Shown piece by piece: positions 42,698 through 64,000 of a stretch of DNA of 64,000 nucleotides. Made by a program: the position numbers and the translations under genes. Positions within the stretch are counted from its first letter, which is position 1, and each line of letters starts with the position of its first letter. Under the pieces are notes generated by a model. That model did not search any database, was not told the origin of the DNA, and was given only the letters and a program-made list of their open reading frames with translations. Origin of the DNA: a virus; the IMG/VR virus record IMGVR_UViG_3300021139_001382, positions 1-64,000 of that record; one strand, written 5' to 3'.

Positions 42698-43641
42698 TAG
42701 CAATCGACGCACCAGATAAGTATCTGGCAGTTACCTGGCAAGTCAACAACTTCTGCAATTTCAAATGTAGTTATTGTAATCCAGGTAACTGGGGTGGCGA
42801 GAATGTTAACGACGGCAATCTTGATATCTATCTGGATAATCTTGCCACTATCATTCAACGATACAAAGACATGGGGTATAAAGAGTTCAAGTTCTTCTTC
42901 AGTGGTGGCGAACCAACTGCTTGGCGCAACTTCATTCCTATCTGTGAATGGTTAAAGAACGAGTTACCTCACTGCACTCTTGCAGTTAACACGAATCTTT
43001 CCAGACCGTTAGCCTGGTGGACAAAGCACCATCATCTGTTTGATGATGTTGTTGCCAGCTTCCATGCAGAGTTTTCAGACAAAGCAAAGTATGAAGTTAA
43101 CAGCATCTATCTTTGTGACAAAGTAAACTATCTGGCAACCAAAATGTTGCTCCATGAAGAACGCTTCTGGGAAGTAGTCGAATACGGTAATCATCTCAAA
43201 ACAGTGATGCCTAACTACGTGTTAGAATGGACTCCGTTGTTTGATGAAATGAGCACCAACGCCGGGCCCTGGCACTACAAAGATCCGGATAAAGCAGAGT
43301 TTATTAACACACATAATTTGGAGATGCAGTTCACGTTGCCGAAACCGTTCAATGAGAGCAAGTGCTTGAGTTACAATAAGTATGATGACGGCACATTAGT
43401 CCCTACTAATAGCAATGATGTTATCATCAACGGAGAAAACTTCTTCAGCGGATGGAGATGCAATGTAGGTGATGCTCTGTTTATTAACCCGGTCGGCGTT
43501 GTAAGTCTGGCCAGCTGCGGTCAAGGCGGCATCGTTGGTCATATACTGACCGACATTGCCCGAGTCGGACCTAAACAGATTACTTGCCGCAAAGAGTATT
43601 GTCATTGCGGCACTGATATTATTATTCCCAAAGTTCTATGA
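42679..43641 (+). CDS. Compact radical SAM protein (MoaA/NifB-like core)
   Basis: 320 residues. The CxxxCxxC is near the N-terminus (C26, C30, C33; FCNFKCSYCNPGNWGG), followed by FFFSGGEPTAWRNFIPICEW with the GGE motif and LAVNTNLSRPLAWW. Unlike the four preceding proteins it has no N-terminal auxiliary segment. The C-terminal region has scattered cysteines (SCGQGG, CRKEYCHCG) that could hold a second cluster. The ATG has a strong AGGAGG ribosome site at 42667-42672 despite a 19-nt overlap, so it is probably well translated. Function unknown. Confidence 0.8.
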   Translation: MGSRKIIAIDAPDKYLAVTWQVNNFCNFKCSYCNPGNWGGENVNDGNLDIYLDNLATIIQRYKDMGYKEFKFFFSGGEPTAWRNFIPICEWLKNELPHCTLAVNTNLSRPLAWWTKHHHLFDDVVASFHAEFSDKAKYEVNSIYLCDKVNYLATKMLLHEERFWEVVEYGNHLKTVMPNYVLEWTPLFDEMSTNAGPWHYKDPDKAEFINTHNLEMQFTLPKPFNESKCLSYNKYDDGTLVPTNSNDVIINGENFFSGWRCNVGDALFINPVGVVSLASCGQGGIVGHILTDIARVGPKQITCRKEYCHCGTDIIIPKVL

Positions 43642-46242: not shown

Positions 46243-46537
46243 TATTTTTAAGAGTGTAGCGTTCTTCTAAAATATCTCTGCATGCCAGTGCTCGGCGACC
46301 TACTTCAGCCAGATCGTATAGTTTCTCAACACGGTACTTTTTGAAGTCATCTTCCAGATCCCATACACGGCGATGAACATCGTACAGTTTATCTAGTTCT
46401 TCCTGAATTAACTCAAAGTCAATGTCATGTAACTGCTCCGTGTAGAAGTCCAGTTCCTCTTGGTTAGAGCCGAGTTTGGCAAACTTTAACTTGGCAATAC
46501 AGTAACGATCTACCAGTTCTATTACGGGAAATTTCAT
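46187..46537 (-). CDS. Small helical conserved protein of unknown function
   Basis: 116 residues, almost all helix and highly charged: VIELVDRYCIAKLKFAKLGS, then ELIQEELDKLYDVHRRVWDL and YDLAEVGRRALACRDILEER. I recognise this general pattern from phage genomes near sugar-modification genes, without a known role. It is the last gene of the minus-strand operon (SDR, C-methyltransferase, this) and overlaps the methyltransferase by 4 nt. It could be an accessory or chaperone-like partner; that is a guess from context. Confidence 0.6.
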   Translation of the reverse strand: MKFPVIELVDRYCIAKLKFAKLGSNQEELDFYTEQLHDIDFELIQEELDKLYDVHRRVWDLEDDFKKYRVEKLYDLAEVGRRALACRDILEERYTLKNIMAEKLNDPVREMKKYGD

Positions 46538-47730
46538 ATGGTGATTACCTTTGGAAAATATTTAAGAAAAATGTCAGTCGGCTCGTCACGAATTGTTTTG
46601 ATTCGTGAGCGAATCTCTGTGAAGAAGTTCCAAGCCAGTGGCATGAATACGATTTTGTCATCTGGGCTAAACTCTTTTATGGCGTCAGAACCTTTGATCA
46701 GAATACGTTGCCCAGGAGTATACATGTTTTGCTTCATCGGATTGTCATCAATGATAAGATCAAGTGGCACCTGAATATAGTTTAACAGCGTGTTGCCCTT
46801 TGCAGCAGCACCATATCCTACTATTTTGTATCCCTCCCCTCTTAACCCCTCGATTGTATTTTTAAGAGTAACCATGTTAGCATTGACATTAGAAACCCAA
46901 TCAACATACGTTTGCGGCCGCTGTAATGCAGCTTCAGTTGTCAGGACGTTTTGTATGTTGAATGGGCGAGATTCTCTTTTACTGAATACGAACACATAGC
47001 TGGTGCCGTGAATTGGAGTGCGAATTGCATCAATCAAAAAGAGTCCGGCACGCGCTGCCAACTTATTCATGCTGTTGATATTGAAATAGTTTACATGTTC
47101 ATGGTAAATAGTATCAAACTCATCGTTCAGCACCATGTTCGCCTGACTAGTCTGGACGAATAGTTTAGTATTATCGTTCATCAGTTCTTTACAGTTCAGT
47201 AAAAATTGAAGTGGATTAGGATTATGAGCCATGACATTTTGAGCAGTGATAGCATCAAACTGATTTGCTAATTTGGGCAGAACGTTATCACTGAAGAAGT
47301 CACAGACGATAGTGTGATTTTTAGAACTAGTTGGGTAGATATTTTCAGCAGGATCTACTCCCCAGGTGTCATATCCTAGTGATTTGAAACTATCTAACTG
47401 GGTGCCATCGTTGCAGCCGATATCTAATACCCGGCGACTGCGATACATGTTACGACAACATTCATCCACATACGACGCGAACCAATCGCTATAGTCTTTC
47501 AGTGTCTTGCTTGTTCCGCTGACATACAGATAGTTCTTATAGATAAGTGCAGGGTCAACTACTGTAGTTAGTTGCAGATGGAAGCAATCTGAACAGAGGT
47601 ATACTCCTAGAGGGAACGTATCCTCTTCATCATCTGCGTGTATCAGATAACTATTAGCCAGAGGTTGCATGCCCAAGTCTAATGATAGTGTTGTGTTGTG
47701 TGACCCGCAGGCCAAGCATGTCTTATTCAT
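46534..47730 (-). CDS. Sugar C-methyltransferase (TylC3/NovU/CloU-like)
   Basis: 398 residues with the full three-part layout of sugar C-3-methyltransferases. First a zinc-binding N-terminus (CLACGSHNTTLSLDLGMQPL then LCSDCFHLQL), next a SAM-binding Rossmann domain (RRVLDIGCNDGTQL), then a C-terminal domain (YKIVGYGAAAKGNTLLNYI). Relatives methylate carbon 3 of 4-keto-deoxy sugars bound to dTDP, making branched sugars. The catalytic EH region appears in DEFDTIYHEHVNYF. It overlaps the upstream SDR gene by 8 nt, so the pair probably acts in sequence on one nucleotide sugar. Confidence 0.85.
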   Translation of the reverse strand: MNKTCLACGSHNTTLSLDLGMQPLANSYLIHADDEEDTFPLGVYLCSDCFHLQLTTVVDPALIYKNYLYVSGTSKTLKDYSDWFASYVDECCRNMYRSRRVLDIGCNDGTQLDSFKSLGYDTWGVDPAENIYPTSSKNHTIVCDFFSDNVLPKLANQFDAITAQNVMAHNPNPLQFLLNCKELMNDNTKLFVQTSQANMVLNDEFDTIYHEHVNYFNINSMNKLAARAGLFLIDAIRTPIHGTSYVFVFSKRESRPFNIQNVLTTEAALQRPQTYVDWVSNVNANMVTLKNTIEGLRGEGYKIVGYGAAAKGNTLLNYIQVPLDLIIDDNPMKQNMYTPGQRILIKGSDAIKEFSPDDKIVFMPLAWNFFTEIRSRIKTIRDEPTDIFLKYFPKVITI

Positions 47731-48628
47731 ATTTTAAAAATTGATTCCTGTTGCTAAATGTTGTTTGGTCAAACTTCGTGGTTAATTCGTCTACAATAGA
47801 ACTGATATTTGCTTTGAATTCAAACCCAAATGTCCGTTGAAACTTGCCGGTGTCCATAATGAAGTCGTATACTCCAGTTATATCGGGCTGAGTATACACT
47901 GTAGTAGATAACACTGAACTTACATGACCGCTGATACCCTCAACCGAATCATAGAAACTAGCAAGATTGTATATACCCGATATCGGATTTTGAATGACTG
48001 TATCTATTGCCCGTGAAATATCCGAGATGCCTAATATCGGTCGCACAATGTTCTTATTGTTGATAAGGATGCTTCCGGTTTCTATAGATCGTTTGGTCAT
48101 TGAGTTGATCATCAGTTCTTCACGAATATTAGGACTCCAGCCATTGACTGTTCCAAACCTGAATCCAATGATATTATGTCCCTCAATGATCAATGAACGT
48201 GCATGAATATCCAGTGTATACTTTGTCAGATCATAATGATTTATGGGCTTAAATGTAAGTTCAATGTCCTCATTGGTCGCGGCATGGGTATCGCCGTAGA
48301 TGCTACCACTGCTGGCATAGATAAGCGTTTGTTCTTTGTCTAGTTTCCGAACAAGATTTACAAAGTTGTTGACATTGTTGTTCCAACTAGAGAAGACTTC
48401 GCCGGCACACATCTTCACTGAACTATGCCCGGCCAGCAGAATGACTACATCATACTTGCGTAGATATTCTTTTGACAGATTTCGATAATCCTCTACTTGA
48501 CTATAATTCAAATCTTTACCGAACCAACACGTATCGACACTTTGAATTTGATACGATTCATGTAGATCGTGGATCAACCGGGACCCTATGTAGCCGTTGC
48601 CGCCTAGTATTAAAATTGATCTTGCCAT
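47723..48628 (-). CDS. NAD-dependent sugar epimerase/dehydratase (SDR)
   Basis: 301 residues from the ATG at 48626-48628, chosen because the protein then begins directly with the Rossmann strand ARSILILGGNGYIGSRLIHD. The extended-SDR catalytic pair is visible as YASSGSIYGD (Ser/Thr) and YDLTKYTLD (Tyr-x-x-x-Lys). Later FRFGTVNGWSPNIREELMIN is a typical substrate-binding segment. It should act on a nucleotide sugar as an epimerase, dehydratase or reductase. An upstream in-frame ATG at 48697 would add 23 unrelated residues and overlap the divergent gene, so it was not used. First gene of the minus-strand operon. Confidence 0.8.
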   Translation of the reverse strand: MARSILILGGNGYIGSRLIHDLHESYQIQSVDTCWFGKDLNYSQVEDYRNLSKEYLRKYDVVILLAGHSSVKMCAGEVFSSWNNNVNNFVNLVRKLDKEQTLIYASSGSIYGDTHAATNEDIELTFKPINHYDLTKYTLDIHARSLIIEGHNIIGFRFGTVNGWSPNIREELMINSMTKRSIETGSILINNKNIVRPILGISDISRAIDTVIQNPISGIYNLASFYDSVEGISGHVSSVLSTTVYTQPDITGVYDFIMDTGKFQRTFGFEFKANISSIVDELTTKFDQTTFSNRNQFLKYE

Positions 48629-48670
48629 AAATCTATTTATTGTGGTGTAAATCGGAGAATAAATATATGA

Positions 48671-49798
48671 ATGATCATTAATACATATTTTACCCATATG
48701 GGAGATACTACTGTTGAAGTAAGGCCCAATTCAGGATTATTGTGTTGTATTGGCTTGCCTGACGACCACAAATATTATTACCAAGAATTTAAACGGGCCC
48801 TGTTTCACATTGAACAAGCGGTGCCGCCCGAAGTAATGGACTCCATCCGAACGGACAATGACACATACCTGGTGTTGTGTAACAGCCACGAAGCGTTCCA
48901 TGAGTCAGTCAATGAGGTCTATCAGCACGTAGTCATTGGTCAGGGAATTCCTGAATATAAAATAATATTAATAAGTGAGTCCGCTGATATTCATGCTGAA
49001 GTTAAAAGAGTCTCTCAGTCGCTGGGGAAACAAGAAATTCAAGCAATATGGATGCGAGTATTTGAAGCAGCGTGTCAGCGTTATATAGAACACATGCCAC
49101 CAGAAGTTTTTCCGGCAACTCTAGTAGACAAAGTATACGACAAGAAATATATTAACTTCAATCGCCGCTGGAGACTACATCGCCCCACTCTTGTTGCATT
49201 GTTAAAGATCAGAAATCTTTTGGATAAGGGATTCGTGAGTCTGGCACCGTGCGATGACCAGAATGATTGGAAAAGAGTTTGGCCCTGGATGTTAAGTCAC
49301 CACTCGCCGGAAATTTCTTCGTTGCTGTTAGCACATGAACGTGAAATTTTTAATATTCCGGACCTGTATCTGGACACCGACGAACTAATGACTAACCGGG
49401 CAGATTTAGAAACTTCGTCTAACTATCTGTATGAAAACTCCTACTTCAGCGTAGTATCAGAGACAAATTTCTATGATTTCTCACCGGGTAGATTTGTCAG
49501 TGAAAAAGTCTTTAAGCCAATTGCGTTTAAGCACCCATTCATAACAGTATCTCGCCCTAATACAATGTCGTTGCTTCGTGAAATAGGTTACAAGACATTT
49601 CATCCATGGATCGATGAAAGTTATGATCTTGAAACTGATGACAACCGGCGAATGTTGATGATAGTAGATGAGATAGAGCGCCTGTCTAATCTTACCCCCG
49701 CTGAGGTCACCTCATTCCTCGAGGGTGTTCGTGATATATGTGAATATAACACGCAGGTGTTATCAAAGAAATGGGTGTGGATTACTCCGCTTAACTAG
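48671..49798 (+). CDS. Fucosyltransferase/exostosin-like (GT-B-type) protein, copy 2
   Basis: 375 residues, clear paralogue of the gene at 43638: NSYFSVVSETNFYDF, then VSEKVFKPIAFKHPFITVSR, LLREIGYKTFHPWIDESYDL, and the end DIVDEIERLSN/LEGVRDICEYN pattern. The shared N-terminal half includes a KYINFNRRWRLHRPTLVALL stretch, matching SFNRNLVSRVHRTSII of copy 1. It restarts the + strand after the minus-strand operon; the 42-bp divergent gap holds an AT-rich region with ATAAATA on both strands. Followed directly by three SGNH genes. Confidence 0.6.
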   Translation: MIINTYFTHMGDTTVEVRPNSGLLCCIGLPDDHKYYYQEFKRALFHIEQAVPPEVMDSIRTDNDTYLVLCNSHEAFHESVNEVYQHVVIGQGIPEYKIILISESADIHAEVKRVSQSLGKQEIQAIWMRVFEAACQRYIEHMPPEVFPATLVDKVYDKKYINFNRRWRLHRPTLVALLKIRNLLDKGFVSLAPCDDQNDWKRVWPWMLSHHSPEISSLLLAHEREIFNIPDLYLDTDELMTNRADLETSSNYLYENSYFSVVSETNFYDFSPGRFVSEKVFKPIAFKHPFITVSRPNTMSLLREIGYKTFHPWIDESYDLETDDNRRMLMIVDEIERLSNLTPAEVTSFLEGVRDICEYNTQVLSKKWVWITPLN

Positions 49799-52077: not shown

Positions 52078-54405
52078 ATGACAACTGTAGCAATGATCGG
52101 GGTAGGAAAATTAGGACAAGATTGTGCTGAGGTAATGGCACTTCATTATGATGTTGTGGGATATGATGTGGTACCTCGCACGCCTACATTCCCTATGAAG
52201 TCGACAATTCAAGAAGCAGTGCAGGGCCGCGATCTAATTTTTATCGCCGCACCGACCGGACATGATCCAATCTACGGAGGCGAGACTCCTACAAGTCATC
52301 TGCCTAACAAGGACTTTGATTACACAATCGTCACTGACATTCTCACCGAAGTCAACAAGTATGTAACCAAGGATCAACTTGTTGTGCTGATTAGCACCGT
52401 TTTACCGGGCACTGTCCGTAACATTCTTGAACCGTGTATCACTAACGCAAGATTCATCTATAACCCGTATCTTATTGCTATGGGCACCACTAAGTGGGAT
52501 ATGATCAATCCTGAAATGGTTATCATTGGCACTGACAACGGTGACGAGACACAAGATGCAAAGATTCTCACTGACTTTTACCGGACATTCATGGAGAATA
52601 ATCCGCGCTATGAAGTTGGCACCTGGGACGAAGCAGAAGCTATCAAGATTTTCTACAACACCTTCATCAGCACCAAAGTTGTTCTGGCTAATATGATTCA
52701 AGACGTTGCAGAAACTAATGGTAATATTAACGTTGATGTTGTTACTAATGCTCTGAAACGTTCTACTCAACGTATCACTGGCCCGTCGTATATGACAGCA
52801 GGTATGAGTGACGGCGGCGCATGTCATCCGCGTGATAATATTGCTCTGCGTTTTCTTGCAGATAGGCTGGGTCTCGGGTATGATCTGTTTGATGCTATTA
52901 TGAAGGCGCGAGAAGTGCAAGCAGAACGTATGGCTAAACGCTGTGTGGCAAATGGAAATAACGTCACGATCATCGGTAAAGCATACAAGCCGGGCGTGCC
53001 ATACTTAAATGGCAGCGGCAGTTTGTTATTAGGCCACTACATTGAGAAGCACGGTGGTCAGGTTAACTACTATGATATTCACACCGGCGATACTGATCTG
53101 AAAGCAGAATGGACACAAGTTTATATCATCGGTTATTGGGAAGACTACGTGTATGAGGCTCTCAAGTATGTCCCGGGATTCGCAACTGTCATTGATCCAT
53201 GGCGACGTGGTATCACTAAAGAACAATGCCAGGCGCCTGTCATTAATTATGGTGATACCCGAAAAAAAAAAGTAATTGACCTACACGAATGGTCCGGGCA
53301 ATTCTTCAACGATGAGTGGCCCGAACTATCTTCTTGTTCTGATCGCATATGTCTGATAGAAGAAATCGATTACATGTTCAATACTGTCGAAGACCTTTTG
53401 TCTGTAATAACGCCGGCAATTGAGTCTGATAAGATAGTTGTATTCAATCGACCTGGAGAGTGCATGGGATTTCATGCACTTAATAAAGTCCAGCTTCTTT
53501 TAGAGAAGATTCCCGATCTGCCGCCCAATAAAATATTTTATGTAACGGGATCCGTGACGGGGATAGAAGATTATGACGCATATATTAGTGGCACCGACAA
53601 GTACAGAATGACCATACTCACTCTGGGTAGAGGTCAAATGCTTCATTTCAGAGATAGTTTCCATTTTCCAGATGCACAGAACATCCTTGATAAAGAGTAT
53701 GAAGTCAGAATAAAAGAGAAGAAATTTTTGTGCTTTAACAAAATTCATAAGGGTCACCGAGCATATATTCTTGCAAGAATGTTAGAGAACGGGTTGTTTG
53801 ACCAATCTTACTTCTCATTCGAGGGCGCGTCACCCAATTGGATTAATCAAATTCAATTAGGTTATGACTGGGCACCCGTTATCAAAGACCAACTCACTAA
53901 GCACATAAGCAAGTTCCCCATTAGGTTAAATATAACTACCGAACGTAGTAATCCGGTGCAGTTTCACATAGATGATATTGGATATCATGCTAATAGTTAT
54001 TTTAGTGTAATTACTGAAACAGTTTTTTATAAAGATAGAAATTTACCTAGGTCGTCTTTTTACGACAACGTGGGTGGGATATTTTTCACAGAAAAAACTG
54101 GACGACCATTGTTGCTAAAACATCCTTTTATCCTGGCTGGCTACGTCAATTCACTATCTGCACTCAGGGACATGGGATTCAAAACTTTTCATCCGTTTAT
54201 TGATGAAACATATGATACTGAGGAAGATGATAAAAGATTGGACATGGTTGTTGCGGAGACCGAGCGCCTTTGTAAATTCACCGATGATGAATGGTTACAT
54301 TGGCAAGCATCAATCAAGGAAATAGTTGAACACAACTATAACACCTTGATTCAAATGAAAAGTTACCATGGCATGGATAGTATCCAACACAAAATAAGTG
54401 GGTAA
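52078..54405 (+). CDS. UDP-sugar 6-dehydrogenase fused to fucosyltransferase-like domain
   Basis: 775 residues in two parts. Residues 1-395 are a UDP-glucose/GDP-mannose-type dehydrogenase: NAD-binding TVAMIGVGKLGQDCAEVM, STVLPGTVRN, then the catalytic Cys249 in GGACHPRDNIALRFLADRLG, and a C-terminal NIIGKAYKPGVPYLNGSGSL-like domain. These oxidise a nucleotide sugar to its uronic acid. Residues 399-775 are the GT-B-type domain of this island: SYFSVITETVFYKD, FTEKTGRPLLLKHPFILAGY, LRDMGFKTFHPFIDETYDT. The join is an A10 run (53262-53271) encoding three Lys; both other frames stop within three codons after it. It may be a true fusion, a slippage switch, or a one-base sequence error joining two genes. 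Confidence 0.75.
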   Translation: MTTVAMIGVGKLGQDCAEVMALHYDVVGYDVVPRTPTFPMKSTIQEAVQGRDLIFIAAPTGHDPIYGGETPTSHLPNKDFDYTIVTDILTEVNKYVTKDQLVVLISTVLPGTVRNILEPCITNARFIYNPYLIAMGTTKWDMINPEMVIIGTDNGDETQDAKILTDFYRTFMENNPRYEVGTWDEAEAIKIFYNTFISTKVVLANMIQDVAETNGNINVDVVTNALKRSTQRITGPSYMTAGMSDGGACHPRDNIALRFLADRLGLGYDLFDAIMKAREVQAERMAKRCVANGNNVTIIGKAYKPGVPYLNGSGSLLLGHYIEKHGGQVNYYDIHTGDTDLKAEWTQVYIIGYWEDYVYEALKYVPGFATVIDPWRRGITKEQCQAPVINYGDTRKKKVIDLHEWSGQFFNDEWPELSSCSDRICLIEEIDYMFNTVEDLLSVITPAIESDKIVVFNRPGECMGFHALNKVQLLLEKIPDLPPNKIFYVTGSVTGIEDYDAYISGTDKYRMTILTLGRGQMLHFRDSFHFPDAQNILDKEYEVRIKEKKFLCFNKIHKGHRAYILARMLENGLFDQSYFSFEGASPNWINQIQLGYDWAPVIKDQLTKHISKFPIRLNITTERSNPVQFHIDDIGYHANSYFSVITETVFYKDRNLPRSSFYDNVGGIFFTEKTGRPLLLKHPFILAGYVNSLSALRDMGFKTFHPFIDETYDTEEDDKRLDMVVAETERLCKFTDDEWLHWQASIKEIVEHNYNTLIQMKSYHGMDSIQHKISG
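53262..53271 (+). promoter_or_regulatory. A10 slippage-prone tract at the domain junction
   Basis: Ten A residues exactly between the dehydrogenase and glycosyltransferase domains. One base fewer puts TAA directly after the Lys codons; reading one base back gives AGT AAT TGA. Slippage of either sign would release the dehydrogenase alone. Confidence 0.5.
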
Positions 54406-54468: not shown

Positions 54469-56703
54469 ATGGATTTTAACCTTAAAAGTTTGACGCATGA
54501 TCTGGTTGCAAAGCAGCGGCCAACAGAAGATGTTGAAGACGCCCGTCATCGTAGCATGATGGAGGCAATTGCCCCGTATGCCAAGAAAACTCAACAGAAG
54601 AATCTGACACCGGTGTATGTTGATTACAAAACACGCAACACTAAGTTAGTTCTGGTGCTGTGCCCAGAATGGGCACCGATGTTCCCTCCCTTTAATCTGG
54701 CCCGTTTGTCCGGTGTTGCTAAGACAGCCGGGTATGAAACCTCTATAATGGATCTGAACGTCAGAGCATACAACCTATATAGAAATGATTGGCAACCTAA
54801 TAATAAGATACCATTTAGATTGTGGGATCCTAGCGCATCATGGCATTGGCTTGGTGACACATATCTTAATGACATTCACCCGGTGCTTGAACCGCTGCTG
54901 ATGCAAGCATGTGATGAACTTGAAGCACTGAAACCTGACGCGATCGGATTCAGTGTATATTACATCAGTGAAGAACCCACTAAGTGGATGTGTCAAGAAC
55001 TGAAGCGCCGCATGCCTAACGTGAAGATCATGGTCGGTGGCAGCAACGTGCAAAAGAGTTGGTTCAACATTCAGCCTTATTATGATTATGTTGTTAACGG
55101 TGAGGGCGAAGAAATCATCCTTAAGGTTCTTGATGAAATTGAAGCAGGTGTAACTCATCCAGCGCCGCAGTATCTTGTGCAGCCGGAAGATCAGCGTATC
55201 AATATCAACGGTCTGCCGATGCCAGACTATGAATCAATCGACTTCAGTGTATACGAGATTCCTAATGGTGTCAACACTGAAATCTCCAGGGGATGCACTG
55301 CAAAATGCACTTTCTGTGAGGAGACACACTTCTGGAAGTATCGCCAACGCCAAGCAGTTGATCTTATCACTGAATTAGAGTGGCTATACTATAACAAGGG
55401 TACTGACATTCTCTGGTTCATCGATTCGTTAGTTAACGGTAACCTCAATGAGTTACGAGCGTTCTGTAAGGGCATAGTTGCTAAGGATCTGAAGATAAAC
55501 TGGACAGGATATGCCCGATGCGACGGCAGGATGGATCTTGAATACTTTAAAGATTTAAAAGCAAGTGGCTGTATCATGTTGAATTATGGTATTGAATCGG
55601 GGAGTCAAAAGGTTCTTGATGATATGGCCAAAGGTGTTACTATCGCGGAGATGGAAGCTAATCTTCGGCATGGTAAAGAAGTCGGGGTATTCGCTGCTAC
55701 GAACTGGATCGTGGGATTCCCCACAGAAGATTTTCAAGATTTTGCGGATTCAATATCATTCCTGTGGCGCATGCGTAACATGAACATTAACAATGTGGGT
55801 GCTGGTGTGGGTTACGGTCTCGGACCGGAAACGATCATCGGGCAAAATCCGCATAAGTTTAATATCAGTTGGCACAAGTATCAGAATCATTGGATCACAA
55901 ATGACTTCTCCAAGGGTGGCACTCACATCATGTCCCGAGTTAAGTTCTTCCACATGTTCATTGATTTCATGAAAGGATGCACTGATGTCCCGGTGCAGTA
56001 TCCTGTCAGGGCCGCACTTGCAAGAGACCATTATGAAATAACATTAAATAATCCAAACGCTTTTAAAGAAATTGAATACGAAAAATTCGACTATAATATT
56101 ATTAAAGTCCGAATTAATCCGTTCGCTGATACTCTTGTCAACGAGATTTGGCCGTTTCTTCGGATGCTGTGGAGATGCCGCGGTGGATTCACTGCTGAAA
56201 TAGTGTTCTGTCCAGAGCTTGATTTGAAAGAATTCGGGGCACAATTCGGCCCGGGTATGTTTGATGCTAATTATAAGTTTGTTATCAGCGACGACGGTAA
56301 ATGGTCAGCAGATTTTCACTACAAGTTTGAACAAGTAGATAACCCATATGATGATAGACAACCTGGACCTGAAGGACGTAAGGGCGCGTTCTATGCACAA
56401 GATTATTCAAGAATGAAAAGTAATACTGCTGCCCGTGCTAGAAATCTTGCTAAACCCACTTGGGGAGTCGATGGAAGAGACGGACAAGATTTCTCTAATC
56501 TACTTGAAGAGGAGATAATGCTTAATAGAACAGTTGACTTTTCCTTTACTCATCATTACGAAGGCACCGGTGACTGGGGAAATCATACTGATTTTGAAGT
56601 AGCAGTGCCTAGTGTATCAACACCGGCTGTCGAGGTATGGACCCCATTGCAACGTGCAATAAAACCTATTCCACTGGCAAGCATTAAGAAGATCGTTCGA
56701 TGA
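54469..56703 (+). CDS. B12-binding-type radical SAM protein
   Basis: 744 residues. Residues about 55-230 form a cobalamin-binding-like Rossmann domain (KLVLVLCPEWAPMFPPFNLA, KPDAIGFSVYYISEE, KIMVGGSNVQKSWF, YVVNGEGEEIILKVL), although the classical DxHxxG is not apparent. The radical SAM site is C276, C280, C283 (SRGCTAKCTFCEE), followed by ILWFIDSLVNGNLNEL and MLNYGIESGSQKVLDDMAKG, standard for the B12-radical SAM superfamily. The C-terminal ~200 residues are unusual and contain a Gly-rich segment. Members methylate unactivated carbons or rearrange skeletons; substrate unknown. The start has an AAAGAG ribosome site and it overlaps the next gene by 4 nt. Confidence 0.85.
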   Translation: MDFNLKSLTHDLVAKQRPTEDVEDARHRSMMEAIAPYAKKTQQKNLTPVYVDYKTRNTKLVLVLCPEWAPMFPPFNLARLSGVAKTAGYETSIMDLNVRAYNLYRNDWQPNNKIPFRLWDPSASWHWLGDTYLNDIHPVLEPLLMQACDELEALKPDAIGFSVYYISEEPTKWMCQELKRRMPNVKIMVGGSNVQKSWFNIQPYYDYVVNGEGEEIILKVLDEIEAGVTHPAPQYLVQPEDQRININGLPMPDYESIDFSVYEIPNGVNTEISRGCTAKCTFCEETHFWKYRQRQAVDLITELEWLYYNKGTDILWFIDSLVNGNLNELRAFCKGIVAKDLKINWTGYARCDGRMDLEYFKDLKASGCIMLNYGIESGSQKVLDDMAKGVTIAEMEANLRHGKEVGVFAATNWIVGFPTEDFQDFADSISFLWRMRNMNINNVGAGVGYGLGPETIIGQNPHKFNISWHKYQNHWITNDFSKGGTHIMSRVKFFHMFIDFMKGCTDVPVQYPVRAALARDHYEITLNNPNAFKEIEYEKFDYNIIKVRINPFADTLVNEIWPFLRMLWRCRGGFTAEIVFCPELDLKEFGAQFGPGMFDANYKFVISDDGKWSADFHYKFEQVDNPYDDRQPGPEGRKGAFYAQDYSRMKSNTAARARNLAKPTWGVDGRDGQDFSNLLEEEIMLNRTVDFSFTHHYEGTGDWGNHTDFEVAVPSVSTPAVEVWTPLQRAIKPIPLASIKKIVR

Positions 56704-57290
56704 ATACGGTGAATCAGTTCGAGCAGACGATTGCTGAATACTTTGGATCACCGTATGCTGTGGCAGTAGACTGCTGCACTCACGCTATGGAGCTGTGTCT
56801 TCGGCTTACTAAACCGAAGATCGTAACCTGCCCGGCGCACACTTATCTATCTGTTCCCATGACTCTTGAGATGCTAGAAATAGACTGGTCATTTGTTGAC
56901 CAGGTCTGGAGCAACTATTATTTTCTTGGGCATACGAACATTGTTGATGCTGCGGTTCTATGGCAGCAAAATAGTTATATCGACAGCACATTTATGTGCC
57001 TGAGTTTTCAGTTTAAGAAGCACCTGAATCTAGGTCGAGGCGGCATGATTCTGCTTGATGATGACGAAGCGTATAAAACTTTGCGAAAGATGCGCTACGA
57101 TGGCAGAGTAGATGGTATCCCGTGGGCAGAGCAAAATGTCGAAACTATAGGTTATCATTATTACATGACACCCGAGACGGCTCAACTAGGTCTTGATAAG
57201 TTTAAAATGGCAAGAGCCACTCACCCGAAGATATGGAATCAGGACAACTATCCTGATCTAAGAAAAATGAAAGTATTTGATGCTAAGTAA
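56700..57290 (+). CDS. Minimal DegT/DnrJ/EryC1/StrS-type aminotransferase
   Basis: 196 residues against about 370-400 for typical members. FEQTIAEYFGSPYAVAVDCC matches the family start, VDAAVLWQQN the PLP-ring Asp region, and SFQFKKHLNLGRGGMILLDD the PLP-binding Lys region; GYHYYMTPETAQLGLDKF matches the usual GYNYRMTE-like motif. The substrate loop between residues 60 and 85 is shortened and the entire C-terminal small domain is missing. Family enzymes add an amino group to keto sugars or cyclitols. Either a compact form, one half of a heteromer, or a decayed copy. It overlaps the amidinotransferase by 11 nt. Confidence 0.75.
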   Translation: MNTVNQFEQTIAEYFGSPYAVAVDCCTHAMELCLRLTKPKIVTCPAHTYLSVPMTLEMLEIDWSFVDQVWSNYYFLGHTNIVDAAVLWQQNSYIDSTFMCLSFQFKKHLNLGRGGMILLDDDEAYKTLRKMRYDGRVDGIPWAEQNVETIGYHYYMTPETAQLGLDKFKMARATHPKIWNQDNYPDLRKMKVFDAK

Positions 57291-58257
57291 AAATGAATGG
57301 GACCCGTTACAAGTGGTCATCGTCGGCGATGCAACCGGAGCACAGATTCCGAAATTAGATATTAGTCTGCGTCTGATCAATTATGCAGATGTGCAGAATG
57401 AAGATGATATTCCGCAAGGCCCTTACCCTCAACAAGTGGTTGACGAAGCTAACGAAGACTTGGAACTATTCTGTGATGTTTTGAGAGATGAGAGTGTGAC
57501 TGTTCTCCGACCGGACGCATCTTGGGAACCTCGCTACTACCACTACTGTCCTAGAGACGGAGTCCTTGTCCATGATGATCTTATTCTGTCCACCCCTCAG
57601 CCGTTAAGGGCCCGGCGCACTGAATATCACGCTCTGGAATCTATCTTAAATCAGTATGGTAAAATGACAGTGGCTCGATGCTCTCAAGTTGACGCTCTTT
57701 ACAACACAGCCTGCTTGGGTGATCCTGATGTTCTGGCCCTCAATGAGACTGAACCGTGTTTCGATGCTGCGAACATTCTACGAGACAACGACAATCTTTA
57801 CTATCTGGTCAGCAACAGCGGTAACAGAGTCGGTGCAGAATACCTTCAAGAGTTATGTCCTACTAAGAAAGTTTGGCCTATTGAGGATGTGTATGCGTAT
57901 ATGCACCTTGATTCTACTATCAGCCTGTTGCGTGAAGGACTGATGTTGCTGAACCCAAGTCGTATTAAGAGTCTTGACCAGCTACCAAAACCACTGCAAT
58001 CATGGAACTACATCTGGTGCCCGGACCCCGGTGAAGTGTATCACTACCCGGGTTATTGCAACAGCAGTAAATGGATCAATGTTAATCTGCTTATGATTAA
58101 CCCTAATCTGGCTGCAATCGAAAGCAACCAACATGCACTTCGGGCTGAACTAGAAAAACACAATATAGATTGTGCGATGATTCAGGCCCGGCATCAACGA
58201 ACTCTTGGCGGAGGATTCCATTGTGTTACACTAGATTTGAAGCGCCAGCATGACTGA
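57280..58257 (+). CDS. Amidinotransferase (AGAT/StrB1 family)
   Basis: 325 residues from the ATG at 57280, ten residues before the upstream stop ends. The catalytic triad is visible: Asp162 in EPCFDAANILRDNDN, His209 in YMHLDSTIS, and Cys315 in LGGGFHCVTLDLKR, matching the GGGFHC-T-D motif of arginine:glycine and inosamine-phosphate amidinotransferases. The N-terminal NEWDPLQVVIVGDATGA and YCPRDGVLVHDDLI are also family features. It would move the amidino group of arginine onto an amine, giving a guanidino product. Overlap with the aminotransferase gene suggests the amine is made by that enzyme. The acceptor is unknown; a free amino acid cannot be excluded. Confidence 0.85.
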   Translation: MLSKNEWDPLQVVIVGDATGAQIPKLDISLRLINYADVQNEDDIPQGPYPQQVVDEANEDLELFCDVLRDESVTVLRPDASWEPRYYHYCPRDGVLVHDDLILSTPQPLRARRTEYHALESILNQYGKMTVARCSQVDALYNTACLGDPDVLALNETEPCFDAANILRDNDNLYYLVSNSGNRVGAEYLQELCPTKKVWPIEDVYAYMHLDSTISLLREGLMLLNPSRIKSLDQLPKPLQSWNYIWCPDPGEVYHYPGYCNSSKWINVNLLMINPNLAAIESNQHALRAELEKHNIDCAMIQARHQRTLGGGFHCVTLDLKRQHD

Positions 58258-59488
58258 CATAGAAATCAGCGCACCGCCATCGCAGACTGAATCTAGCTCA
58301 ATTCATTGGTATAACATACCAGGATATCCTTCGAAGCCGGCCTCACTAACTAATGAGTTTTTACTGGCACTGAAACGACTAACAGGACTAGGAAAGGGGG
58401 ATCCGTTGTTTATTCATATGGCAAACGGGCCGATGACGGATCTAGATCCAATCGAACACACCGCGGTCGAAGTTGAATTATTGAATAATGTAGGGCTACA
58501 TATATATTTTTACGAGCCTATATGTTCTTATATCGAAGTCACCACTTTTCCTAGAAACGGGTTCTATTCTGAGATGCATTCTGACATAGACAACGCATTG
58601 CTGAGAACCACAGAACTTGAATCTGTGCGAAAATATTGCATAAGGAACAGATTGTCAAATGTTATAGTCCATACATGTGATTATGACATTGATAAGTATT
58701 ACCCATATTATTCCTCATTGATGACACTGCTATACGATGATTTGTTTCTAAAGAGCCAGGTTGTTTATGAAGTTAGTGATACTACACCCAAATCATTCTC
58801 TAAGAAATTTATATGTTCTAACTGGCGTTACACTAAACCTAGAAATATTATTGCTGCCTATTTATCAACACTGCCAGCCCATCTTAGTTGGTGTTATAAT
58901 ATCTCACCTGAGGCTCTTCAGGAGAATTTGTGGTTCATGTTGTCTGATTGGGACGATTCTATTTTAGAGAAAGTTAAATTCCTCTCCTCGATATCACCTG
59001 TTAATTTAGATATGGAACGCACTGCCGCCCGAGTTATAGTGAATGATGAATCGTATCTTTATCCGGAGGACGATTATTTCTCGCCATTCAATCTTCAGAC
59101 GGATTCAATGAGTCCCTATTATCGTGATAGCTTCGTAAGTATAGTGACGGAGTCTAGATTCGCACAACCCACTGCTAATTATAGTGAGAAGTTATCGCAA
59201 GCAATCGTCCACCGACGGCCGTTTATAATAGTCGCCCCGCCCAACACGATCAAATGTATTAGAGAGGCGGGTTATCAGACTTTCAATACTTTTTGGGATG
59301 AATCATACGACGAATGTGTTAATCATGAGGATAGGCTACGAAAGCTTTTCGAATTGATTGATCACATTAATAGTTATTCGATGGAAGAACTTATGAATAA
59401 GTATAAAGATATGCATGACATATTAGAGCACAACTTTAACTTGTTGGTTTCTAAATCACCGGGGCAAAGGCTCCTTTCAAGGAAATAA
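58250..59488 (+). CDS. Fucosyltransferase/exostosin-like (GT-B-type) protein, copy 4
   Basis: 412 residues, a more divergent member of the island's GT family: DSFVSIVTESRFAQP, then SEKLSQAIVHRRPFIIVAPP and IREAGYQTFNTFWDESYDEC, followed by the HDILEHNFNLL helix seen at the same place in other copies. The N-terminal part (DPLFIHMANGPMTDLDPIEH) is unrelated to the other copies. It overlaps the amidinotransferase by 8 nt and is followed after one base by an SGNH gene, repeating the GT-then-SGNH order seen twice upstream. Confidence 0.55.
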   Translation: MTDIEISAPPSQTESSSIHWYNIPGYPSKPASLTNEFLLALKRLTGLGKGDPLFIHMANGPMTDLDPIEHTAVEVELLNNVGLHIYFYEPICSYIEVTTFPRNGFYSEMHSDIDNALLRTTELESVRKYCIRNRLSNVIVHTCDYDIDKYYPYYSSLMTLLYDDLFLKSQVVYEVSDTTPKSFSKKFICSNWRYTKPRNIIAAYLSTLPAHLSWCYNISPEALQENLWFMLSDWDDSILEKVKFLSSISPVNLDMERTAARVIVNDESYLYPEDDYFSPFNLQTDSMSPYYRDSFVSIVTESRFAQPTANYSEKLSQAIVHRRPFIIVAPPNTIKCIREAGYQTFNTFWDESYDECVNHEDRLRKLFELIDHINSYSMEELMNKYKDMHDILEHNFNLLVSKSPGQRLLSRK

Positions 59489-59489
59489 T

Positions 59490-60244
59490 ATGGAAAAAAT
59501 AATGTTGATAGCCGGATGCAGTCACGCCGCCGGATCTGAGATAGATGGCACCGGCGATAGTAAGTATAACCGACAGCATAGTTTTGGCAACTTACTTGCA
59601 GAAAAATTGGGGTATCGGCCTATTAATATCGCGGTAACAGCAGCGACCAATATGGGTATTGCCCGCAGTGTATTACAGTGGTTCAGTGAACAATATGATC
59701 CGGCAGTGCAAGAAGTGTTCGTGTTAATTGCCTGGGCAGAGTGTTCTAGGATGGAAATGCCTGTCAAAAATTTACGAATTATCAGCCCGGAGTTCCTAGT
59801 ATCGATTGGTATCCTAGTCAGATTAATAACTACCTGGTTGTAAACACCGCATCGTCTAGTGATATAGCTTGGCAAGATGAAATATTAAATCGAATAAAAC
59901 GATTTATCCCCGAAAATATAGAGTATCTTGAAATAATGAGTGCAACGTATGCGCTACAGCTTCAATATTTTTTAAAGATGCACCACATCAATTATTGTAT
60001 GTGTAACACCGGATACATGTTCACTAAAGAAGCCACACATATGAAATTTTATCTTAGTCAATTAGATTCTTCACGATACATGTCCATGGACACCGATCTG
60101 AATGGTTCATTCTACTGGAAATATCGTGAAGCCGGACACATCAATCCATTGGCAAAATATTTTCATCACGGTGAAGAACCGCATGCTCTGTATGCAGAAG
60201 AACTATACAGATTTATAACTGACAACGACCTGACTAATAAATAA
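59490..60244 (+). pseudogene. SGNH hydrolase-like protein, copy 6, with a frameshift
   Basis: Two frames make one protein. The first (59490-59843 as it stands) starts MEKIMLIAGCSHAAGSE, a GCS block I, followed by ITAATNMGIARSVL-type Gly/Asn region. At about 59766-59770 (A5 run) the homology moves to the -1 frame, which is open from there as KKFTNYQPGVPSIDWYPSQI and runs to 60244. A single extra A would restore a 251-residue protein, the size of its paralogues, with a late AGHINPLAKYFHHGEEPHAL in the His region. Either a genuine lesion, a sequencing indel, or recoding; the site is not a standard slippery heptamer. Confidence 0.7.
60236..60243 (+). promoter_or_regulatory. Possible late promoter element AATAAATA
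   Basis: 26 nt before the ATG at 60262, with TAAGGAAA as ribosome site. One mismatch to TATAAATA; it overlaps the stop of the frameshifted SGNH gene. The downstream bases (ATACTATT) also resemble T4 late promoters. Confidence 0.45.
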
Positions 60245-60261
60245 TACTATTAAGGAAATCT

Positions 60262-61176
60262 ATGGAAAAAGTTCTTATAACGGGTAGTTCGGGCTTCATC
60301 GGAGGCTACCTCAAAGCCAGATTCGCAGGCAAATATGAAGTTCACGAACTGATCAGTGATCTACTTGACACTGAGGGTATGCGTAGCCAACTCAACGAAG
60401 TTAATCCAGACTACATCATTCACCTTGCTGCCCGAACTGAGGTTGAAAAGAGTTTCTATGAGCAGACAACCTTCAGTGAGGTCAACTATGTCGGCACCGT
60501 CAATCTGATTGAACTGGCCCGCTCTCTGACTAATCTGAAATTATTTGTGTTTAGTTCAACTATGGAAACATATGGATGGCAACCAGAATCTGATCTGATC
60601 CGGGACGGTAAAGAGTATACGGTGCCAGTGTTCGATGAAAACACCCCGCAGAACCCCAATGCACCATATGCAGTTGCTAAAGTCGGTGGTGAGTATTATC
60701 TGAAGTATGCTGAACGAGCATACAACTTCCCGTTCTGTGCGTTCCGACAGACTAATACATACGGACGCTGGGACAATGATTTCTTCGTTGTGGAGCAAGT
60801 TATCACGCAGATGATGGACAACCCCGACGAGATTAATCTGGGCTACGGTAAACCATATCGGAACTTCCTGTTCATTGACGATCTGATCAACCTATACGAG
60901 ACCGTTCTTGAACAGCCTGACAACGCCCGCGGACAAATCTTCTGTACCGGTCCTGACAACGCCCTGTCAATTGAAGCACTCGTTGACAAGATTGCAAAGA
61001 AGATGAACTGGACTGGTAAAGTTAACTGGGGAACAAAGTTGAAGCGTCATGGTGAAATCTATGTGCTGAACTCGACTGCGGCCAAGGCCGAACAGATGCT
61101 CGGGTGGAAGCCGCTTGTTGACCTGGATGACGGACTTGACCGGACCATTGAGATGTGGAAAAATAAACGTAAATGA
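60262..61176 (+). CDS. NAD-dependent sugar epimerase/dehydratase (SDR), GMD/GFS-like
   Basis: 304 residues, complete extended SDR. The Rossmann start is KVLITGSSGFIGGYLKARF; the catalytic motifs are VFSSTMETYGW (Ser/Thr) and YAVAKVGGEYYLKYAE (Tyr-x-x-x-Lys). FRQTNTYGRWDNDFFVVEQV and LGYGKPYRNFLFIDDLINLY are substrate-domain motifs of NDP-sugar epimerases/4,6-dehydratases. It should make or convert a 4-keto or epimerised nucleotide sugar, feeding the aminotransferase or C-methyltransferase of this island. It has its own promoter-like element and a TAAGGA ribosome site. Overlaps the next gene by 4 nt. Confidence 0.85.
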   Translation: MEKVLITGSSGFIGGYLKARFAGKYEVHELISDLLDTEGMRSQLNEVNPDYIIHLAARTEVEKSFYEQTTFSEVNYVGTVNLIELARSLTNLKLFVFSSTMETYGWQPESDLIRDGKEYTVPVFDENTPQNPNAPYAVAKVGGEYYLKYAERAYNFPFCAFRQTNTYGRWDNDFFVVEQVITQMMDNPDEINLGYGKPYRNFLFIDDLINLYETVLEQPDNARGQIFCTGPDNALSIEALVDKIAKKMNWTGKVNWGTKLKRHGEIYVLNSTAAKAEQMLGWKPLVDLDDGLDRTIEMWKNKRK

Positions 61177-62276
61177 AAATTTTCATCGGCCCAAATGTCG
61201 ATATCAGTTCTATACTATTTTTTGAAATGGACCCTCAATGGGAGATAGTAGAGGATACCGACCAGGCTGAAATTTTCATTACGATTGATAATCACAACGG
61301 CAATCTTGCCCCAGTTATCGCTTTATATAGACCGCATCAGGTTCTATTGGTGTTGGCAATTTTTCATGTATCAGAAAGTATGGGTCTTAAATTTTATGGG
61401 GACCTAAAAAGGACATTCAAACCGGTGACCGAGAAAGTAATAGTGATGCACACTAATTTACAGTATCAACCCGATAACATGGTGTATTTTGATCATATGT
61501 TTGACCGACAAAAATTATATTGTACTGATTATGATAGCGGTATAGCATTGCATTCCAGAATCTGGACGAATTCTTGTTCAAAAGAGATATATGAATTATA
61601 TCCGATAAAAAAGTTGGCATATTATAACAAATTTCTGGCCCCTATGCAAGTGTACGACCTAGGTAACATATCTCCTGATGATCATTCCAGAATGTTTTTT
61701 CGACGAAAATTGAAAGAGATTTTATCACAAATTAGCAATGTCCACACAAACGACGATATGAAATTCTTACCGGACGGGTTAAATGCAGACGTATTGCTGA
61801 TACTCAATCGTACCCAGACCGGCGGATTTTGGTACCCCGTTTCTCATGCATATTACGATAGTTCATTTGTTAGTGTTTATACGGAGTCGTTAGTCGATTC
61901 TAGGCTTCAGTGGGTGTCGATGCTCACTGAAAAGACGCTTGATCCCATGATTCGCGGTAACTTTGTGCTGCCGTTTGGTTACTACGGATTAATAAGAGAC
62001 ATTCGCAACTACGGGTTTCTGTTACCAGACTGGATTGATTACTCATACGATCTTATCGAAGATAATAAGGATCGCTTTAATGCATACGTCGATAGTCTCC
62101 GAAAACTTGATAGATTTACTGTAAATGAATTGTATGATCTGTACTTAAAAGATAAAGCAATTCTGGAGCATAACAGAGCATTATTTTTCAACAAACCATA
62201 TGACTATCCTAATGTACATGCCCGAGTAGAGGCATGCATCAGGACAAATGAAGCAACTAACTGGCAGACATGTTGA
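61173..62276 (+). CDS. Fucosyltransferase/exostosin-like (GT-B-type) protein, copy 5
   Basis: 367 residues, the most divergent copy: SSFVSVYTESLVDSRLQW, then LTEKTLDPMIRGNFVLPFGY and IRNYGFLLPDWIDYSYDLIE, with the DKAILEHNRALFF helix at the end. The TE...TEK pair is kept, while the buried PFI of the others is replaced by FVLPF. The N-terminal half (KIFIGPNVDISSILFFEMDP) looks like the first Rossmann half of a GT-B fold. It overlaps the final radical SAM gene by 7 nt. Confidence 0.6.
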   Translation: MKIFIGPNVDISSILFFEMDPQWEIVEDTDQAEIFITIDNHNGNLAPVIALYRPHQVLLVLAIFHVSESMGLKFYGDLKRTFKPVTEKVIVMHTNLQYQPDNMVYFDHMFDRQKLYCTDYDSGIALHSRIWTNSCSKEIYELYPIKKLAYYNKFLAPMQVYDLGNISPDDHSRMFFRRKLKEILSQISNVHTNDDMKFLPDGLNADVLLILNRTQTGGFWYPVSHAYYDSSFVSVYTESLVDSRLQWVSMLTEKTLDPMIRGNFVLPFGYYGLIRDIRNYGFLLPDWIDYSYDLIEDNKDRFNAYVDSLRKLDRFTVNELYDLYLKDKAILEHNRALFFNKPYDYPNVHARVEACIRTNEATNWQTC

Positions 62277-64000
62277 TAAGTCTGGTTCAGCCCAATTTCC
62301 AACAAGGGCCTAAAGAGTTCAATGCTCACTATTTGCCTTACTCGGCAGGAATACTGTGGAGTTACGCTTACCAATTTTCAGAGATTAAAGATAATTTTTC
62401 ACTTGACAGAATTGTCTGGCGTAGAGAGAAGATAGAACTCGTTGCAAGGGCATTGGAAAAGAATTCTGTTGTGGCGTTCAGCACGTATGTTTGGAATAAA
62501 AAATATAACTATGCCCTAGCCAAACGAGTTAAAGAACTGAATCCCAAGTGTGTGATAGTATTTGGGGGCCCGGAAGTACCTATCACCAAAAAGAATCTTT
62601 TCAAAACTTACGCCTTTATTGATGTAGTTGTTCGTGGCGAAGGTGAAATCACTTTTAAGAGTGTGTTAGATTGTATGATCGCTGGGTCCGATTTTGACTT
62701 GGTGCCCGGTTTGTTAATCAATAAGGATACGGTTGCAGTAGATACTGGTCCCAGTATTAGGATCGATTCTCTTGATAAAATTCCTAGTCCTTATTTGACT
62801 GGTGTTTTCGACAAGATCATAGCTGAAACACCCGGTGTAGAGTGGAACGCCACACTTGAAACTAACAGGGGATGCCCGTATAGTTGCACCTTTTGTGACT
62901 GGGGCTCCCTAACATACAATAAAGTCAAGCTGTTTGATCTGTCACGGGTGTTCGCCGAGTTAGAATGGATCTCACGAAATAAATGCGGGTTCGTGACAAT
63001 CACTGATGCTAACTTTGGCATGTTCGTTGAACGCGATGACCAAATAGCCGACAAGATGTTAGAGTTACAAGACACATATGGATATCCCAGTGCATTGTCG
63101 ATCACATGGGCAAAGAACCAGCGACCTGAAGTTTTTGCTATCGTCAGCAAACTCATCAAAAGTCCACGCTTTAACTCGGGGCTCACTGTGTCAGTGCAAA
63201 GTATGGACTTGGATGTGTTAGAAAACATCAAGCGGAAGAATCTTGACCAACATAAAATCTCTGAAATTTTTGAGATATGCGAAAAAAACAATGTTCCGGT
63301 TTATACCGAAATTATTCTTGGCTTGCCCGGTGAAACACCCGAGTCTTGGAAAGAGGGCATATGGAAATTATTTAGAGCGGGCAATCACACCGGTCTGAAT
63401 ATCCTACATTGCCAGTTACTGGAGAACGCCGAGATGAATCTGTTGCAACGTCGATTGTTTGGTATCACAAGCACTCTGGCATACGACTACATGAGCGGCA
63501 GTTACAATAACAACTATCTTACAGAGTCCGTTGAGATAGTGACTTCGACTAAAGATATCTCACCGGATGAAATGAGCGAATTGCAACTGTTTAACTGCTT
63601 CATAGACACCTTTCACATTAATGGGCTGACTACATTTGTCAGCAGATTTCTATACAAGAAATATCAAATAGATTACTCGGCGTTCTATAATAAATTTTAT
63701 GAGTTTTTAAAGACGGACGCCTGGTTCATTGATGAAATGACAGAACTCCGCGCGTTGTACGACAAGTGGATGACAGTGGGGAAGATTAACCACCCGGGCA
63801 TTGAAAACATTGAGATACACGGATGGAACCTTAATCACTTAATTACTATACGCCTTCATGCCTTCAATAAATACGATCATATATTTGATCTTGTAGAAAG
63901 ATTTGTCCGAGAAGAATTTGATATCGACTCTGATTTATTAGAGCAACTTGTTCGCTTCCAAAGCAAGTACGTTATTAACTTTGAGAAACGGAATGAGTAT
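62270..64000 (+). CDS. B12-binding-type radical SAM protein, 3' end outside window
   Basis: Open from the ATG at 62270 to the window end with no stop (577 codons visible). The first ~130 residues are a cobalamin-binding-type domain: SAGILWSYAYQFSEIK, VAFSTYVWNKK, PKCVIVFGGPEVPITKK, VVRGEGEITFKSVL. The radical SAM site is C202, C206, C209 (NRGCPYSCTFCDWG), with FVTITDANFGMFVERDD and GLTVSVQSMDLDVLENIKRK from the barrel and EIILGLPGETPESWKEGI as the common B12-rSAM motif. It differs clearly from the one at 54469. Such proteins commonly act as methylases or in natural-product assembly. Substrate unknown. Confidence 0.85.
   Translation, partial: MLISLVQPNFQQGPKEFNAHYLPYSAGILWSYAYQFSEIKDNFSLDRIVWRREKIELVARALEKNSVVAFSTYVWNKKYNYALAKRVKELNPKCVIVFGGPEVPITKKNLFKTYAFIDVVVRGEGEITFKSVLDCMIAGSDFDLVPGLLINKDTVAVDTGPSIRIDSLDKIPSPYLTGVFDKIIAETPGVEWNATLETNRGCPYSCTFCDWGSLTYNKVKLFDLSRVFAELEWISRNKCGFVTITDANFGMFVERDDQIADKMLELQDTYGYPSALSITWAKNQRPEVFAIVSKLIKSPRFNSGLTVSVQSMDLDVLENIKRKNLDQHKISEIFEICEKNNVPVYTEIILGLPGETPESWKEGIWKLFRAGNHTGLNILHCQLLENAEMNLLQRRLFGITSTLAYDYMSGSYNNNYLTESVEIVTSTKDISPDEMSELQLFNCFIDTFHINGLTTFVSRFLYKKYQIDYSAFYNKFYEFLKTDAWFIDEMTELRALYDKWMTVGKINHPGIENIEIHGWNLNHLITIRLHAFNKYDHIFDLVERFVREEFDIDSDLLEQLVRFQSKYVINFEKRNEY

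Follow-up and report, generated by a model that had tools for sequence, protein, structure and literature searches.

A half-size aminotransferase of the DegT fold (mini-DegT) and a StrB1-type amidinotransferase form a conserved and apparently virus-specific module, which lies in a 64,000-nucleotide (nt) stretch of viral DNA, positions 1 to 64,000 of the 67,220-base IMG/VR record IMGVR_UViG_3300021139_001382 (hereafter the window). It is probable that the two enzymes act in succession in a guanidino-sugar pathway, in which a keto-sugar would become an amino-sugar, would receive an amidino group from arginine and would then enter a glycan. The novelty lies in a pairing specific to viruses and in an aminotransferase of half the usual size, and not in the chemistry itself. 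The two genes are as follows:

56700..57290, plus strand: mini-DegT, a compact DegT-fold aminotransferase of 196 amino acids (aa) (Pfam PF01041, AlphaFold2 (AF2), Foldseek, invariant residues)
57280..58257, plus strand: StrB1-type amidinotransferase, 325 aa, with Asp162, His209 and Cys315 (phmmer, AF2, Foldseek, tree)

The amidinotransferase belongs with the StrB1-type enzymes and not with the glycine-specific AGATs. In phmmer searches with the open reading frame (ORF) 57280-58257, StrB1 (1bwd) scored 230 bits (3.5e-67) against 131 bits for human AGAT, and all viral amidinotransferases scored placed StrB1 above AGAT. The conserved start is ATG 57280 ('MLSKNEWDPL') rather than TTG 57277; because homologues begin with 'MLSKNEW', this ATG is the likely start, which yields the 11-nt overlap with mini-DegT (57280-57290) described in the initial annotation. 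Numbered from it, the Asp162, His209 and Cys315 of the complete StrB1/AGAT-type enzyme recognised there are exact, and the triad together with the arginine site (Asp93, Asp162, His209, Asp211, Arg228, Ser263 and Cys315) is invariant in 145/145 viral copies. Structure prediction and active-site comparison, proposed as a check at that stage, agree: the AF2 model (predicted local distance difference test, pLDDT, 95.9) is nearest in Foldseek to StrB1 1bwd (template-modelling score, TM, 0.93; 39% identity), ahead of SxtG, HsvA and AGAT, and shows the pentein fold, Asp-His-Cys triad and arginine-site residues of the StrB1/AGAT superfamily.

Kinship with glycine-specific AGATs, which by the initial annotation would have refuted its reading, is contradicted by both scores and phylogeny. 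A quick tree, with Shimodaira-Hasegawa-like approximate likelihood ratio support only, recovered a main viral clade of 46 viral sequences plus that of the window (support 100) inside a StrB1-containing group without AGAT (support 99), with no firm sister order within that group. Two AGAT flap residues, Asn300 and Met302, have been named (PMC4887976, PMC3684758); Ser or Ala occupies the Asn300 position in 142/145 viral copies, and Met the Met302 position in 108/145. Placement outside the AGAT clade and the changed Asn300 position thus both separate the viral enzyme from glycine-specific AGATs. The name glycine amidinotransferase has been given to related enzymes in phages and other viruses (PMC8226683; PMC2853527). 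For the present clade, to which copies in those two papers may or may not belong, the name is doubtful because of the StrB1-over-AGAT scores, the tree and the changed Asn300 position; the CP220 protein (PMC2853527) sits elsewhere in the tree.

The partner had been recognised as a DegT aminotransferase with its pyridoxal 5'-phosphate (PLP) Lys and Asp, which proved correct, although its half size had been missed. ORF 56700-57290 matches Pfam DegT_DnrJ_EryC1 (PF01041) at 6.8e-19 and 68.8 bits (cut-off 19.8), and the PLP residues read by alignment (Thr27, Asp83, Ser102 and Lys107) are invariant in 86/86 copies. Across these copies its length is 193-218 aa, compared with ~370-390 aa for ordinary DegT enzymes. 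Such constancy indicates a fixed compact family rather than the truncation of one contig, and rules out a truncated aminotransferase or a sequencing error. Profile alignment to the best-matching DegT enzyme of known structure consists of two blocks (profile positions 4-51 and 90-174), with much between them skipped. It stops near residue 250 of that full-length protein, and the whole C-terminal domain is thus missing. The two-domain architecture of ~370-390 aa is therefore absent, with an internal segment lost as well as the C-terminal domain, and at 193-218 aa without that domain the protein is better labelled 'DegT-fold, compact' than an ordinary family member. The AF2 model is confident (mean pLDDT 93.8), and the best Foldseek matches are NDP-sugar aminotransferases (GDP-perosamine synthase, AtS13, CalS13 and ArnB; query-normalised TM ~0.65-0.78). 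Among 690 genomes from two bacterial phyla, all mini-DegT matches (E<=1e-8) were partial and lay within open frames of at least 381 aa, and the mini-DegT family therefore appears viral.

The pairing was followed in IMG/VR contigs, which are fragments, with fetched flanks of 6-8 kb; because the best 80 loci per scan were retained, the percentages hold for closer relatives. An alignment scan detected 501 viral amidinotransferase relatives, with 79 loci retained; the apparent rarity of the enzyme in a single-sequence scan (2 loci) was an artefact of narrow patterns. The first mini-DegT scan matched at least 599 viral stretches. A mini-DegT is present in the flanks of 76/79 viral amidinotransferase loci (96%), within 60 bp in 43, and with near-copies removed it is found in 41/42, which rules out chance neighbours. 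From the mini-DegT side, the amidinotransferase occurs in 44/66 loci, being the next gene downstream on the same strand in 27 of the 44, and the 11-nt overlap recurs in 12/27 adjacent pairs (near-copies removed). The bacterial comparison set of 67 StrB1-like loci (L087-L153) is a biased sample, having been chosen with patterns derived from the viral proteins; a mini-DegT was found in 0/67. A laterally moved cellular pair was rejected on this count and on the purely partial matches in the 690 genomes. The linked pair appears to be present in hundreds of uncultivated phages, and one isolated phage, Synechococcus phage S-SCSM2R, encodes both proteins. Two different amidinotransferases stand beside one mini-DegT in contigs L165-L167, the L181 group, the L191 group and L216, which would allow two guanidino groups.

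Head and baseplate genes occupy the first part of the window, and a large modification cluster spans ~36-64 kb. The neighbours of the pair in this cluster include:

54469..56703, plus strand: B12-binding radical SAM protein of 744 aa, immediately before mini-DegT (Pfam Radical_SAM, B12-binding)
58250..59488, plus strand: conserved protein of 412 aa, perhaps a GT10-like glycosyltransferase (weak Glyco_transf_10 match in a relative)
60262..61176, plus strand: nucleotide-sugar dehydratase/epimerase of the short-chain dehydrogenase/reductase (SDR) type (Pfam Epimerase, GDP_Man_Dehyd; best PDB match RmlB 1g1a, 7.6e-24)
52078..54405, plus strand: fusion protein with a UDP-sugar dehydrogenase half at the N terminus and a further domain at the C terminus (Pfam; PHROG UDP-glucose dehydrogenase, 1e-94; clustering)
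47723..48697, minus strand: second NAD-dependent sugar epimerase/dehydratase (Pfam Epimerase, 6.4e-20)
46534..47730, minus strand: C-methyltransferase of deoxysugar-pathway type (Pfam Methyltransf_14, 9.8e-27; Methyltransf_13)
62270..64000, plus strand: second B12 radical SAM protein, extending past the window end (NCBIfam NF033712, 7.7e-80)

The 3' end of the first radical SAM gene overlaps the mini-DegT start as ATGA, and an 8-nt overlap joins the amidinotransferase stop to the start of gene 58250-59488; with the 11-nt overlap between mini-DegT and amidinotransferase, the four genes (54469-59488) look translationally coupled. Gene 58250-59488 has no Pfam match of its own, one of its 22 relatives matches Glyco_transf_10 at 0.0017, and two PDB profile searches for a glycosyltransferase identity gave no match; from sequence, it is possibly a GT10-like glycosyltransferase. 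The nucleotide-sugar enzymes that the initial annotation saw around the pair are borne out by Pfam, whereas its glycosyltransferases are weakly supported in the window and are annotated in a related cyanophage. By clustering, the C-terminal domain of 52078-54405 is related to neighbouring putative glycosyltransferases, including 58250-59488. The second B12 protein (62270-64000) is nearest to the KedN5 C-methyltransferase model NF033712, at 268.8 bits and below the cut-off of 700. The SGNH-like gene at 59490-60244 is split into two ORFs and looks broken in the window, its relatives being single and intact (e.g. L005:12051-12797, 248 aa). Five consecutive radical SAM proteins, three with SPASM, lie at 37515-43641, a density unusual for a phage that recalls Campylobacter phage modules. 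Right after the baseplate wedge genes, 11555-30658 is one 6,367-aa ORF with a high content of Thr, Ser, Val and Gly, whose product is probably a giant structural protein. A search for a downstream repeat protein as glycan acceptor found no repeats in the window, and the longest relative had no PHROG match.

Two lines of evidence carry the case for a sugar acceptor: a DegT-fold enzyme accompanies the amidinotransferase in 96% of the viral loci, and sugar genes make up the surroundings. Homologues of the window-type UDP-sugar dehydrogenase or sugar SDR occur in 36/43 viral loci and in 0/67 bacterial ones; the 'GT-like' cluster mixes UDP-sugar dehydrogenases with putative glycosyltransferases, and the two were therefore counted separately. 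A homologue of 58250-59488 is found in 29/43 loci with the amidinotransferase. The B12 radical SAM homologue accompanies the amidinotransferase in 24/43 loci and is seen in 0/22 loci lacking it (Fisher p ~2e-6, in a test on locus counts that ignores shared ancestry), and a NodU/TobZ-type carbamoyltransferase (Pfam) occurs in 17/44 loci with and 1/22 without. In two lineages (L012, L014, L015, L017 and L018), a PRMT-like methyltransferase gene lies between the pair; its best PDB match is PRMT7 (4.7e-13), nearly all listed matches are PRMTs, and both lineages keep the double-Glu loop 'SEFYGPRLFDEG', which in PRMTs holds the guanidino group. This is suggestive of a gene that could N-methylate a guanidino group, in these two lineages only.

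Mini-DegT loci without the amidinotransferase differ in content, with a WbuC-like cupin in 11/22 (2/44 of those with the amidinotransferase) and another methyltransferase too. Several such copies (L025, L029, L030, L042, L045 and others) adjoin the cupin and a sugar SDR, and these loci look like a second mini-DegT pathway type. For the guess that the cupin is a sugar ketoisomerase, a PDB profile search came back empty and the NCBIfam WbuC cupin model matched just below its cut-off.

The favoured pathway can be laid out stepwise. A nucleotide-sugar dehydratase/epimerase of phage or host would supply the keto-sugar, which mini-DegT, with its DegT fold and intact cofactor residues, would aminate using PLP. 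The StrB1-type enzyme, its arginine site and triad preserved, would take an amidino group from arginine, bind it at Cys315 and hand it on to the newly formed amine, with a guanidino-sugar and ornithine as products. A transferase would then attach the guanidino-sugar to a glycan, for which the virion is the most likely site. Gene context suggests that tailoring may differ among phages, through the B12 radical SAM protein, NodU/TobZ-type O-carbamoylation or, in the two lineages, PRMT-like N-methylation. The guanidino-sugar pathway suspected in the initial annotation thus gains a conserved pair, a StrB1-type enzyme and nucleotide-sugar surroundings, with a sugar as the putative acceptor; decoration of the virion or host surface is speculative. 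A wider proposal, conceivable but short of probable, is that many aquatic phages make an undescribed guanidino-sugar, N-methylated or carbamoylated in some, via a half-size DegT enzyme without the C-terminal domain, and that this yields a cationic virion glycan.

Several observations weigh against the guanidino-sugar pathway. No nucleotide-sugar gene lies within the fetched flanks of 7/43 viral loci. The missing internal segment and C-terminal domain mean that the mini-DegT substrate may differ from those of full-length DegT enzymes. In Campylobacter phages, a distant amidinotransferase lies among radical SAM genes and no aminotransferase was detected. Lastly, the nearest cellular relatives retrieved, the bacterial StrB1-like enzymes, have an amino-acid connection. 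They are ~50% identical to StrB1, and genes in their loci match SbnA and SbnB, which together make 2,3-diaminopropionate, above curated cut-offs; in 40 loci, a long protein directly downstream carries an amino-acid adenylation domain with similarity to Pls/PosA-type non-ribosomal peptide synthetases (NRPS). With such neighbours, StrB1 kinship alone cannot settle a sugar acceptor; for the marine bacteria of L087-L153, the gene content suggests a guanidino metabolite of amino-acid type that is uncharacterised.

Such bacterial loci, with SbnA, SbnB and the NRPS, open the way to an alternative in which the acceptor of the viral amidinotransferase is no sugar but 2,3-diaminopropionate, a different amino acid or the amine of a peptide that the many radical SAM enzymes mature; mini-DegT would then produce this acceptor or something separate. 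The radical SAM/SPASM array at 37.5-43.6 kb of the window and the Campylobacter arrangement (PMC2853527) would fit it as well. We nevertheless consider it unlikely, given the distribution of sugar enzymes between viral and bacterial loci and the mostly sugar-enzyme structural matches of mini-DegT; DegT-family enzymes of known function use keto-sugars, cyclitols and aminoshikimate-type precursors. More improbable still is a streptomycin-like cyclitol route, in which mini-DegT would aminate an inosose and the amidinotransferase would use inosamine phosphate, like StsC and StrB1. StrB1 is indeed the nearest solved amidinotransferase, the DegT and StrB1 activities follow one another in streptidine formation, and some phages carry two amidinotransferases; however, no inositol dehydrogenase or inosamine kinase was found among the scanned window proteins (some ORFs unscanned, and the record a fragment), and the sugar genes present are of the nucleotide-sugar type. 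A creatine-type gene making guanidinoacetate from glycine, as the glycine amidinotransferase listings (PMC8226683; PMC2853527) and a discussed creatine role for ocean viruses (PMC11360552) might suggest, is ruled out for practical purposes by scores, tree and the Ser/Ala residue, and the sugar context and DegT partner speak against it too.

If the guanidino-sugar pathway is correct, a cationic sugar joins the known range of viral glycans, some viral glycine amidinotransferase annotations need renaming, and the compact aminotransferase, smaller than is usual in its class, poses the problem of how an active site lacking the C-terminal domain is closed. In the open-licence literature, we found no paper on phage guanidino-sugars or on S-SCSM2R, and hence no functional study of its cluster.

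Among known systems, the closest counterpart is StrB1, the L-arginine:inosamine-phosphate amidinotransferase of streptomycin biosynthesis (1bwd), which shares the fold, the catalytic and arginine-site residues and a DegT-family aminotransferase as pathway partner; the viral enzyme differs in its separate clade, its half-size DegT partner and the lack of cyclitol genes among scanned window proteins. Human AGAT shares the superfamily, triad and arginine site, and is set apart by its lower score (131 versus 230 bits for StrB1), a separate clade and the Asn300 change. Mini-DegT resembles the DegT/DnrJ/EryC1/StrS enzymes (GDP-perosamine synthase 3dr4, AtS13 4xau, CalS13 4zas and ArnB) in large-domain fold and PLP residues, with 'GYHYYMTPE' in place of the 'G-x-N-Y-R-M'-like motifs of the full-length enzymes. 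In the Campylobacter phages CP220 and CPt10 (PMC2853527), too, an amidinotransferase is accompanied by radical SAM and sugar-nucleotide transferase-like genes, but it is only ~24% identical and differs in tree position, and mini-DegT was not detected. Synechococcus phage S-SCSM2R (PQ898602.1) encodes both proteins at 54% and 56% identity to those of the window, with glycosyltransferases, 2-oxoglutarate (2OG)-oxygenases and a radical SAM protein near the pair; unlike in the window, the two genes are separated by three others, which encode a radical SAM protein, a glycosyltransferase and a 2OG-oxygenase. As S-SCSM2R is an isolated phage, on Synechococcus WH7803, the idea is directly testable.

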